A stretch of 64,000 nt of DNA from Haliscomenobacter hydrossis DSM 1100. GTDB taxonomy: Bacteria > Bacteroidota > Bacteroidia > Chitinophagales > Saprospiraceae. Positions 9,732 through 28,322 of the stretch are shown piece after piece. Below the pieces are notes generated by a model, which was not told the DNA's origin, did not search any database, and was given only the letters and a program-made list of their open reading frames with translations. The translations under genes were made by a program, and so were the position numbers. The DNA lies in the NCBI RefSeq assembly GCF_000212735.1, contig NC_015510.1:124001-188000 (forward strand), written 5' to 3'. Position 1 is the first letter of the stretch; each line of letters opens with the position of its first letter.

Positions 9732-9804
9732 GCGGATGTAGCTCAGCTGGTAGAGCGCAACCTTGCCAAGGTTGAGGTCGCGGGTTCGAATCTCGTCATC
9801 CGCT
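9732..9804 (+). tRNA. tRNA-Gly (anticodon GCC)
   Basis: 73 nt. Acceptor arms GCGGATG/CATCCGC pair perfectly. The anticodon stem CAACC/GGTTG closes a TTGCCAA loop, giving anticodon GCC. The T-loop TTCGAAT is present and the CCA end is not encoded. A strong terminator follows directly, so this tRNA is probably its own transcript. Confidence 0.97.
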
Positions 9805-9805
9805 C

Positions 9806-9933: not shown

Positions 9934-10006
9934 GCGGAAGTAGCTCAGTTGGTAGAGCATTAGCTTCCCAAGCTGAGGGTCGCGAGTTCGAGTCTCGTCT
10001 TCCGCT
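9934..10006 (+). tRNA. tRNA-Gly (anticodon CCC)
   Basis: 73 nt. Acceptor arms GCGGAAG/CTTCCGC pair perfectly. The loop TTCCCAA gives anticodon CCC, and the T-loop TTCGAGT is present. The three bases after the discriminator happen to read CCA, so the CCA tail may be encoded (to 10009). The sequence is close to the upstream Gly(GCC) gene, consistent with an old duplication. Confidence 0.96.
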
Positions 10007-10020
10007 CCATTTTTTCAAAC

Positions 10021-10048: not shown

Positions 10049-10363
10049 GCCCAGATGGTGGAATCGGTAGACACGCAGGACTTAAAGCAATTTGAGTGCT
10101 CAAGGGGAAATCCTTGATGTAGAATCCCTCAAATTCGGGGAAACCTTTTTCCTAATTCAGTAGGAATGGCAATCCCGAGCCAAGTTTCGATTTTGGTCGA
10201 AAAAGGTGTAGAGACTAGATGGGGGACACCTAAGGAATTTGCTCTAAGGTGAAGGGATAGTCCAGACCACAAATGCTGCTTAGGTAGCTCGCGGCGAAAG
10301 TCGTAGTTGGTAAGAAAATCCTGTGGCCATCCGGCCGTGCGGGTTCGAGTCCCGCTCCGGGCA
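10049..10363 (+). tRNA. tRNA-Leu (anticodon UAA), split by a group I intron
   Basis: Exon 1 is 10049-10083 and exon 2 is 10315-10363. Joined, they give an 84-nt class II tRNA: anticodon stem CAGGA/TCCTG closing the loop CTTAAAA (anticodon TAA), a long variable arm GGCC-ATCC-GGCC, T stem GCGGG/CCCGC and discriminator A. The split falls between the first and second anticodon bases, the position of the cyanobacterial and plastid tRNA-Leu introns. The acceptor stem GCCCAGA/TCCGGGC has one A-C mismatch at pair 5-68. CCA is not encoded. Confidence 0.95.
10084..10314 (+). ncRNA. Group I self-splicing intron in tRNA-Leu(UAA)
   Basis: 231 nt, no open reading frame. Core elements are in the right order: P region AAATTCGGGGAAACC (10131), Q region AATCCCGAGCCAAG (10171), R region GTGTAGAGACTAGATGG (10206) and S region AAGGGATAGTCC (10252). 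P4 pairs TTCGGG with CCCGAG, P5 pairs CCTTTTTCCTA with TAGGAATGG, P6 includes TTTCGA/TCGAAA, and P7 pairs GACTA with TAGTC. The 5' exon ends in T, which can form the splice-site U-G pair with GAG at 10094, and the intron ends in G. This is the subgroup IC3-like architecture. Confidence 0.92.
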
Positions 10364-10366
10364 CGA

Positions 10367-10400
10367 AACTTCTGTCATGAGAATTGGCAGAAGTTTTTTT
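10367..10400 (+). terminator. Intrinsic terminator after tRNA-Leu
   Basis: Arms AACTTCTG and CAGAAGTT, followed by a run of T. It begins 4 bases after the tRNA end. Confidence 0.85.
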
Positions 10401-26396: not shown

Positions 26397-26435
26397 GTAG
26401 AGTAGAGAGAAGCGGCGCTGCCGCTTCTCCCCCTC
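26397..26435 (-). ncRNA. Group II intron domain VI
   Basis: Minus strand hairpin GAGAAGCGGC/GCCGCTTCTC followed by CTCTACTCTAC, the 3' end of the intron with terminal AC. The branch-point A is expected in this helix or its 3' side. Confidence 0.75.
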
Positions 26436-26438
26436 GTC

Positions 26439-26470
26439 AATCCGTACGTGCGGTTTTCCCGCATACGGCT
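26439..26470 (-). ncRNA. Group II intron domain V
   Basis: Minus strand AGCCGTATGCGG, GAAA tetraloop, then ACCGCACGTACGG. It carries the AGC catalytic triad at its base and the expected bulged two-stem shape. Confidence 0.85.
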
Positions 26471-26495
26471 TTCCTATGAACTTCTTCATGAGCTT

Positions 26496-27911
26496 TCACA
26501 GGCGAACTCCTCCGGAAGAGTATTTCGTCGGGTCGATTAGTCCATACTTTTCGACTAATGCCTCAAAGGCTCTTTGTCCATAAAGCCTACACTTCCGTTG
26601 ACTCTTGCGGTTATAGTAACGGTTCAGTCGCTCTTGCAGGTAGTGCCGTAACCGTCTTTTGCTCACCGCTGGATAGCTCACCCCTTTGATGTCAAAGTAG
26701 TTCAACCATCCCCGTAATAGCTTATTCAGGTCTTCGCTCACTTGTTCTCCCTTGTAGTGACCATGTGCTTCAAGATATGTATCAATCTTGTCTCGGATCT
26801 TTTGCTCCGATTTCTGACTTGGAATGATGTTCCAGTAGCGTTTGTTACGATCCCATAAATCCTTGTCGTAGCGGATGGTGAACCCTAAAAAGTCAAAGCT
26901 CTCCGCTTTTGCTTCAACCGTTCGGGTTTTCTGCTCATTCAAGCTTAATCCCATTCGACTTAGCAAGCTTTTGAGCTGCTCCTTCACCTGTTCTCCGATC
27001 TGTTTGCCCATTAACACAAAATCATCTGCATACCGTACTATCTTCACTCCACCTTGGTAAAACAAACTCTTCGGATTGTTCACGATCCGATCTAATAGGT
27101 TCAGGTATATATTGGCCAGTAAGGGCGAGATCACGCCCCCTTGTGGTGTCCCTACTTTGTTCTTCTTACCCCCTTTAAACTGTCCATCCTCGTATATCGG
27201 CGCTTTCAACCATTGACCGATTAAGTCCAATATCCGTCCGTCACTGATCCGCTCTTTTAGCCCAATCAGCAGTTTATCGTGTGGTATCGTATCAAAGTAT
27301 TTACTCAAGTCCGCATCCAATACTTCACTCTTCCCTTCCTGTAGATAACCCTTGATCGCTCCTAGTGCATCCCCAGAACTGCGTTCTGGCCGGAACCCAT
27401 AGGAACTTTCCTCAAAGTCCGCTTCAAAGATCGGTTCTATTAGTAGTTTACATGCTGTCTGTACTATCCGGTCTCTAACTGTCGGTATCCCTAATGGCCG
27501 TTCTCCTCCGTTCGCTTTCGGGATCATTACCCGTTTTACTGCTTGCGCCCGGTAGCGTTTCGTCCTTAGTTCTTCCCCTAGTTCCTCCAAATAGTTCTCC
27601 ACGCCGCCTTGCTCAATATCATTTATGCTGATCCCGTCTATGCCGGGGGAGCCTTGGTTGGCTTTTACTGCCTTCCACGCAACGCTCAACATATGTTTTT
27701 GAAACACCTTGTCGTATAGCACGTAAAACTTATACCCCTTGTCCTGCTTGGCTTTTTGGTATAGCTTGCATTGTAACGAAAATACCCTTTCCGCATCGCT
27801 CATCTCCCATTTCTTCTTCCCGAATAGTGGCAGTTCTCCCTCCGCTCCGTCTTTCTGATGATACTTGTTTCTCAATTTTGACTGGTCTTCCATTTTGCAA
27901 GTTTTGTTCAT
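26496..27911 (-). CDS. ltrA: Group II intron reverse transcriptase/maturase
   Basis: 471 aa, intact. Encoded in intron domain IV. RT motifs: GIDGISI near 90, RPLGIPTVRDRIVQ near 138-151, YGFRPERSS at 171-179, DADLSKYFDTI near 199-209, GTPQGGVISPLLANIYL near 254-270 and catalytic YADD at 294-297. The maturase (X) domain GIIM follows (LRGWLNYFDIKG), and the protein ends YGLIDPTKYSSGG without an HNH endonuclease domain. It splices and mobilises the host intron. Endonuclease-free types favour single-stranded or hairpin targets, matching the insertion site. Confidence 0.95.
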   Translation of the reverse strand: MNKTCKMEDQSKLRNKYHQKDGAEGELPLFGKKKWEMSDAERVFSLQCKLYQKAKQDKGYKFYVLYDKVFQKHMLSVAWKAVKANQGSPGIDGISINDIEQGGVENYLEELGEELRTKRYRAQAVKRVMIPKANGGERPLGIPTVRDRIVQTACKLLIEPIFEADFEESSYGFRPERSSGDALGAIKGYLQEGKSEVLDADLSKYFDTIPHDKLLIGLKERISDGRILDLIGQWLKAPIYEDGQFKGGKKNKVGTPQGGVISPLLANIYLNLLDRIVNNPKSLFYQGGVKIVRYADDFVLMGKQIGEQVKEQLKSLLSRMGLSLNEQKTRTVEAKAESFDFLGFTIRYDKDLWDRNKRYWNIIPSQKSEQKIRDKIDTYLEAHGHYKGEQVSEDLNKLLRGWLNYFDIKGVSYPAVSKRRLRHYLQERLNRYYNRKSQRKCRLYGQRAFEALVEKYGLIDPTKYSSGGVRL

Positions 27912-28322
27912 AGTAATGCCCCTTCGCTCCTCCCGCTTTTACCTTTTCGGGGATCAGCACTAATATGGGCATCTCCGACTCCCTCGGCAGGGTTGGATAT
28001 CCCTCCGTTAGGGTCTCCCACGTTCATGCGGCACCTTTGATGGACACGCAACATTATTTTTACCCCGGGTAGCCCCCTTTGTGCACTTTGCCGATGCTTC
28101 CATTGGGGTGGCAGGTTTCATCCAATCTGGCAGACTGACCACTACCAACAGTGTAACGAGGCCTAACTAATGCAGCTTATCCATCTCGTTAGTGCGAGCT
28201 CTTGTCATTTCGTTTCCTCCACAACAATCGCACCTCCTTCAAGCTGATCGGCATCTTGGCTCGTGTGGTTCTTGCATCCACATAGGTTTTATTTTATATT
28301 TACCGCACGCCTCGTGGCGCAC

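Follow-up and report, generated by a model that had tools for sequence, protein, structure and literature searches.

A group I intron of self-splicing type in the sole tRNA-Leu(UAA) gene found in Haliscomenobacter hydrossis, from an intron family spread over many bacterial phyla

The window analysed here is a stretch of 64,000 nucleotides from Haliscomenobacter hydrossis DSM 1100 (NC_015510.1). It contains a tRNA cluster on the + strand, which opens with tRNA-Gly(GCC) at 9732..9805 and continues with tRNA-Gly(CCC) at 9934..10009, both found by ARAGORN and cmscan. The tRNA-Leu(UAA) gene follows at 10049-10363 and is split after U34 by a group I intron. The 5' exon (10049..10083) terminates at U34, the intron (10084..10314) is 231 nt long and has G as its final base, and the 3' exon (10315..10363) runs to the discriminator base, with CCA not encoded; ARAGORN puts the 3' end of the gene one base further, at 10364. 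Immediately downstream, a terminator-like hairpin with a T run (10365..10397, + strand) is recognised as a consensus match only, and near the gene such consensus sites number four in 1 kb against 1.2 expected.

Run without its intron option, ARAGORN finds only the two tRNA-Gly genes in the window and skips the split tRNA-Leu. When the exons are joined, the same program calls tRNA-Leu(taa), whose acceptor stem contains a single A.C mismatch. The Rfam family Intron_gpI (RF00028) matches 10074-10285 on the + strand in cmscan with 71.6 bits (E 3.5e-16, gathering score 50), and this is the sole match to the family in the H. hydrossis genome at E 0.001. The pattern of the 3' junction occurs once in the window and never in 100 shuffles. 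An earlier note, made from the letters of this DNA alone, had proposed these exons, the 231-nt insert with its terminal G, and an insertion point equal to that of cyanobacterial tRNA-Leu(UAA) introns; the searches agree with it, and the position between U34 and A35 is also the one found in the cyanobacterial loci that we fetched.

The window also holds an intron of another type, a group II intron on the - strand (26397-27938). Its domain V (RF00029, 47.9 bits, 26397-26473) immediately follows an ORF that encodes reverse transcriptase and maturase domains.

The group I core (P3, P4, P6, the P7 pseudoknot and P8), the U.G wobble of P1 and the terminal G are all present in the tRNA-Leu intron, and the P, Q, R and S elements can be read by eye. 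All helices are on the + strand. P1 pairs 10080-10086 with 10091-10097, and its wobble U10083.G10094, the 5' splice site, is found in 54 out of 54 aligned introns. P2 (10098..10120) carries a GAAA loop at 10107-10110. P3 is formed by 10125-10130 with 10221-10226, P4 by 10135-10140 with 10173-10178, P5 by 10144-10145 with 10168-10169, P6 by 10179-10181 with 10205-10207, P6a by 10185-10190 with 10197-10202, and P8 by 10227-10230 with 10248-10251 together with 10235-10236 with 10243-10244. The P7 pseudoknot pairs GACUA (10213-10217) with UAGUC (10258-10262). The P9 region (10266..10311) has an outer helix (10266-10270 with 10306-10311) and two hairpins, one GAAA-capped at 10292-10303 and a second at about 10275-10288. 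P3 to P8 come from the alignment of the 54 introns, P1, P2 and the P9 region from folding and this alignment. Alignment columns 248-252 are locally misaligned and fit the window sequence poorly, and there the hairpin of the P9 region was taken from single-sequence folding instead.

The alignment contains tRNA-Leu(UAA) introns from Bacteroidota, Alpha- and Gammaproteobacteria, Binatota and phages, with cyanobacterial introns left out. The 54 members were drawn from a larger set by group and by length (at most 262 nt), near copies and outliers being omitted by hand. P1 and P7 were added to the RNAalifold structure before the pairs were counted, giving 64 pairs from P1 to P9 including the P7 pseudoknot. 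A predicted pair of alignment columns 42 and 67 was dropped because it clashes with P1. RNAalifold also paired GGACU of the 5' exon with the S element; this pairing competes with P7, all five of its pairs are invariant, and it was set aside.

Standard pairs fill 95.9% of the 3417 cells of this structure, compared with 79.4% in shuffles. Sliding the structure by 1-3 columns lowers the pairing to 28-44% (maximum 43.9%), a control against which it is favoured because it was partly drawn from the same alignment. Both sides change in 43 of the 64 pairs, the covariation is 0.469 against 0.165 for shuffles, and none of 500 shuffles reaches the real structure on any of five measures, although the kinship of the aligned introns inflates this result. 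In P3, P4, basal P6, P7 and P8, 99-100% of the cells are paired (100% in P3, where six out of six pairs change on both sides), and in P6a 90.5%. Four pairs of P7 are invariant; the fifth switches between A-U (38 of the 54 introns) and U-A (16). The pairings P4, P5, P6 and P7 named in the earlier note are thereby borne out, as P1 and P3 to P8 covary over the alignment. The folding energy of the gene alone is a modest signal (z -2.04, with 3 out of 100 shuffles folding equally well).

Of 199 genomes of the family Saprospiraceae, 15 contain the split junction and 98 the intact pattern, with no genome containing both. The other 86 match neither, a consequence of using exact patterns and of some genomes being incomplete; patterns read backward gave zero matches in both searches of the 199 genomes. 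Both exons and the intron were recovered directly in 14 of the 15 split-junction genomes, and in the fifteenth (G450) via an identical stretch, L145. The split gene is found in G515, a genome of the genus Haliscomenobacter, and in L144, from a MAG named Saprospiraceae, and in each of the two 7 out of 11 tested neighbouring proteins match (rimO 93.8%, gldC 86.3%). Two contigs of G515 each carry a split tRNA-Leu, one of them ending inside the gene, which points to two copies of the gene or to a bin that mixes strains.

A further genome of the genus, G411, has an intact tRNA-Leu(UAA) in the order Gly-Gly-Leu, identical to the joined H. hydrossis exons at 70 of 84 positions. We considered it as a possible empty site. 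The tRNA cluster is the same, but none of the 11 tested neighbouring proteins matches within the 11 kb fetched and the identity of the locus is unproven. With the gene split in G515 and intact in G411, a gain or loss of the intron inside the genus is likely, in either direction.

The H. hydrossis intron is 88.5% and 88.0% identical to its two nearest Saprospiraceae introns and at most 78.5% identical to the other Bacteroidota introns compared. Other introns of Saprospiraceae and Cytophagales share its site and core, the values of 88.0-88.5% belonging to the Haliscomenobacter group. Proteobacterial tRNA-Leu(UAA) introns lie in the same gene of another host phylum; those that we fetched share the site, with up to 76.9% identity in Alphaproteobacteria. 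A gammaproteobacterial tRNA-Leu(UAA) intron was reportedly described in 2002. Split tRNA-Leu-TAA genes are given for Beggiatoa and Thiomargarita in one paper (PMC4853749), and we liken these two by description.

In a tree of 103 introns, the window intron groups with the two Saprospiraceae introns (99/100). This tree is a poor optimum, as trees with forced groups, including Haliscomenobacter with the cyanobacterial introns, score up to 41 log units higher. For a second tree, 13 rows were dropped (11 with long end branches, plus the pair L237 and L243 on a common long branch), leaving 90, and near-identical rows were collapsed to give 83. The backbone of the 83-row tree is without resolution, and for the rows kept neither a single Bacteroidota clade (p 0.069) nor a single Saprospiraceae clade (p 0.137) is rejected. 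Support labels on its re-rooted path may be off by one branch and were not used there. Judging from the sequences, the intron is inherited within part of Haliscomenobacter and has its kin in Saprospiraceae.

In a sample of 395 Bacteroidota genomes, a group I intron was found in 30 at E 0.001, and 24 of these exceed the cut-off. One locus was fetched per genome, further matches in the same genomes being left out. Splicing these 30 loci by brute force in ARAGORN gave mostly ambiguous anticodons or nothing, and an exon-pair rule was used instead. It asks for the exon 1 motif, at least 4 of 5 pairs in the anticodon stem, the G|AAAATC junction and two loose core motifs, and counts identical introns once. 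A split tRNA-Leu(UAA) is present in 7 of the 30 (7 of the 395 sampled genomes), one of them, L012, doubtful. Positions 1401-1856 of L012, which hold the split gene, are 99.8% identical over 456 bases to positions 1125-1580 of L194, from an alphaproteobacterial bin. Outside this stretch, which lies at the end of the L012 contig, the two pieces do not match, and L012 may reflect contamination, misassembly or recent transfer.

The remaining group I loci of the 30 genomes were read by eye and lie in other tRNAs or rRNA. By eye, eight Bacteroidota loci carry group I introns in tRNA-Arg(UCU), mostly from one genome group, and three in initiator tRNA-fMet, one of these in the family of the window. 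Six others are group I-like matches in 23S rRNA, of which L007 is 754 nt and L026 651 nt long.

The TTCGA form of the junction pattern, searched in species genomes, gave at least 119 loci. Both exons and a distinct intron of at most 900 nt were recovered in 73 of the 119 listed. Among the matches listed, these 73 comprise 25 loci from Bacteroidota, 25 from Alphaproteobacteria, 6 from Acidobacteria, 5 from Gammaproteobacteria, 3 each from Chloroflexi and Betaproteobacteria, 2 from unassigned Proteobacteria, and 1 each from Cyanobacteria, Binatota, Planctomycetes and Firmicutes. The phylum labels were taken from record titles, and single assignments may be wrong, many of the records being metagenome bins. 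The pattern was meant to miss most cyanobacteria, a choice based on what we take to be the exon sequence, so the counts do not compare phyla. The other 46 loci were left out because exon 1 was missing or outside the fetched piece, the intron exceeded 900 nt (as in L219), the loose motifs were unmet (as in L247, from Phormidium, with both exons present), the intron was a duplicate (as in L194), or the match was due to chance or to something else. The junction pattern is found in 8 of 59 genomes of the cyanobacterial phylum. Searched with the family model, ten genomes of named loci all contain a group I intron, above the cut-off in 7. One locus from Kiritimatiellaeota (L234) shows an apparently intact tRNA-Leu(UAA) and a second 3' half about 150 nt further on.

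The same gene is split in phages. The junction pattern matched 68 IMG/VR contigs, and both exons were recovered in 16 of them. The other 52 viral loci were left out for reasons similar to those above, a candidate of more than 900 nt (L115) included, and many of them end like group I introns by eye. Of 14 phage loci scanned with Rfam, the split tRNA-Leu intron is above the gathering score in three (L091, L118, L133); the other 11, L297 and L298 among them, are below it and are supported by their exon pairing and core motifs. A BLAST search of the window gene against phage records found a 735-kb uncultured phage whose alignment spans 92% of the query with 69.2% identity (E 2e-22), and the isolated Agrobacterium phage Atu_ph07 has a split tRNA-Leu in a stretch without annotated tRNA. 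According to a 2014 review, every phage intron seen until then lay in a protein-coding gene (PMC3984707). One phage contig, L097 (987-1411, 5822-6158), combines its split tRNA-Leu with a large tRNA array, a tmRNA, a match to OLE RNA at 109.1 bits and a tRNA-Sec match near the cut-off.

These loci raise a phage source, in which the intron came to the Haliscomenobacter lineage from a phage whose tRNA array includes a split tRNA-Leu(UAA). Related HNH ORFs in phage and Saprospiraceae introns also point that way, as does the grouping of Sediminibacterium introns with phage introns in the 83-row tree (95.2/99, nine rows). We nevertheless regard such a source as rather improbable for H. hydrossis, since none of the 10 phage introns compared exceeds 73.6% identity to its intron, the supported tree partners of that intron are Saprospiraceae, and no more than 3 of the 14 scanned phage loci exceed the Rfam gathering score.

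Recent acquisition across phyla from a cyanobacterium is hardly credible. The tRNA and the insertion point are the same, and the core can be aligned end to end with that of cyanobacterial tRNA-Leu(UAA) introns, plastid introns being left out of the alignment and trees. The 3' junction G|AAAATCC is shared too, but it belonged to the search pattern. We take tRNA-Leu(UAA) introns to be of subgroup IC3. A group of Haliscomenobacter with cyanobacteria is not rejected in the 83-row tree (AU p 0.455) and outscored the free tree in the first, poorly searched one. However, the 8 cyanobacterial introns compared are at most 65.8% identical to that of H. hydrossis, lower than the best values for Saprospiraceae and Alphaproteobacteria, and they form a group of their own in the 103-intron tree (96/93). 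Nor do the exons and flanking genes stand out from those usual in the family. An identity of 88% within Saprospiraceae against at most 66% to these cyanobacterial introns makes a recent cyanobacterial transfer unlikely.

According to the earlier note, introns of this kind are seldom found beyond cyanobacteria, plastids and a few Proteobacteria. This claim fails, as the split gene is present in several phyla (the 73 of 119 loci listed) and in the 16 of 68 IMG/VR loci. The note had left a choice between transfer and an unexpectedly wide distribution, with a phylogeny against cyanobacterial and proteobacterial introns as a way to decide. Wide distribution is favoured, by the many phyla, the phage contigs, the 15 of 199 family genomes and the 7 of 395 in the phylum sample, one of them doubtful. 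In the 103-intron tree the Saprospiraceae partners are supported and the 8 cyanobacterial introns group together; recent cyanobacterial transfer is unsupported, while a deep join with cyanobacteria is not rejected.

Scanning the H. hydrossis genome with RF00005 gave 45 matches. ARAGORN calls on these matches and their surroundings contain the Leu anticodons CAA, CAG, GAG and UAG (two) and no UAA, in a scan that is incomplete, as Ala(UGC) and Ile(GAU) are not in its list. An exact pattern for the 3' half of an intact tRNA-Leu(UAA) has zero matches in the genome. A second intact copy, one of the findings that the earlier note had named as fatal to its reading, was therefore found by neither method. 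TTA accounts for 18 of the 300 Leu codons in ten window ORFs. As UUA codons are used and no intact tRNA-Leu(UAA) was found, a working tRNA is expected from the split locus, which is real, well defined and very probably functional. That it is instead a decayed pseudogene, with another tRNA reading UUA, is close to inconceivable: the acceptor-stem mismatch and the non-exhaustive tRNA scan speak for it, but the core pairings are intact, two methods found no other tRNA-Leu(UAA), relatives keep the split gene in the same place and UUA codons are in use.

We are almost certain that this is a group I intron of self-splicing type in the sole tRNA-Leu(UAA) gene found in H. hydrossis, an inherited copy without ORF in one Haliscomenobacter sublineage, and a member of a tRNA-Leu(UAA) intron family spread over many bacterial phyla. 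In the precursor, ACUU at the end of the 5' exon would pair with the internal guide of P1. The first attack, by a guanosine bound at P7, would then fall after the U.G wobble (U10083), and the freed 5' exon would attack after the terminal G10314, so that U34 is joined to A35 and the UAA anticodon restored. This order of steps follows established group I chemistry. That splicing occurs, that it is autocatalytic and that its steps come in this order is what we infer from the letters rather than observe in RNA.

The longest stop-free frame within the 231-nt intron has 61 codons, and an encoded homing endonuclease was not found in it. The intron is too small for one, so its own mobility is unproven. 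Four related Saprospiraceae introns (L203, L238, L260, L267) differ from it in carrying an HNH-like ORF. They are 715-743 nt long with frames of 156-162 codons from stop to stop, and similar frames are found in L200 and L202, Flavobacteriales by record title. In L203, L260 and L267 the frame stops just short of the motif read as the 3' strand of P1, which places it in the P1 loop; in L238 this motif was not found, and the frame occupies the same span. Three products were compared with Pfam. The L238 product matches HNH at 2.3e-4 (21.7 bits, cut-off 21.4), the product of phage L097 does so at 9e-5, and the L260 product has zero matches at 1e-3. The products of L260 and L097 match the HNH family phrog_10822 at 5.6e-28 and 1.4e-29, respectively, and the four Saprospiraceae products share 31-43% identity with that of L097. 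The frame of the phage intron L080 sits instead between P4 and the R element, so related endonucleases occupy different places in the tRNA-Leu(UAA) intron. L092 and L185 have HNH-like frames, by eye, on the strand opposite the intron.

An intron in the Synechocystis fMet gene is said in one paper to contain an ORF of 150 codons (PMC5733544). Both it and the present family are group I introns of bacterial tRNAs that occur in an ORF-bearing form; the Synechocystis intron lies in a different tRNA and is set beside ours by description. We presume that its ORF encodes a homing endonuclease. With an HNH-like ORF in four related introns, homing is plausible, and it would be the likely way in which the family moves, through the HNH endonucleases of some of its members. 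A wider reading is possible, though we hold it only tentatively. The tRNA-Leu(UAA) intron may be not mainly an ancient cyanobacterial heirloom but one lineage of a mobile family found throughout bacteria, which HNH endonucleases, settling repeatedly in different loops, and phage tRNA arrays would have carried between phyla, with copies without ORF as a resting stage.

In the literature, tRNAs in general are described as often invaded by group I introns (PMC8172020), and a 2014 review places tRNA group I introns in cyanobacteria, alpha- and betaproteobacteria and plastids (PMC4033280). The word "intron" is absent from the accessible text of the H. hydrossis genome paper (PMC3156403), and in the open-licence literature, most subscription papers being outside this scope, a description of a tRNA-Leu(UAA) group I intron in Bacteroidota was not found. 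A needed tRNA can look missing from a genome in such cases, as ARAGORN run without introns skips the split gene. tRNAscan-SE 2.0 was not built to detect group I introns in tRNAs, according to its paper, which also counts 36 genomes without an fMet or Ile2 tRNA gene owing to group I introns (PMC8450103).

The interest of the H. hydrossis gene lies in the breadth of its intron family, the presence of the family in phage contigs and its HNH-bearing relatives. Records of many phyla and phage contigs share the split gene, some copies with endonuclease-like ORFs, which extends the distribution beyond the list of the 2014 review. Many more lineages are now at hand for testing whether the intron is an ancient element passed on vertically or a mobile one.
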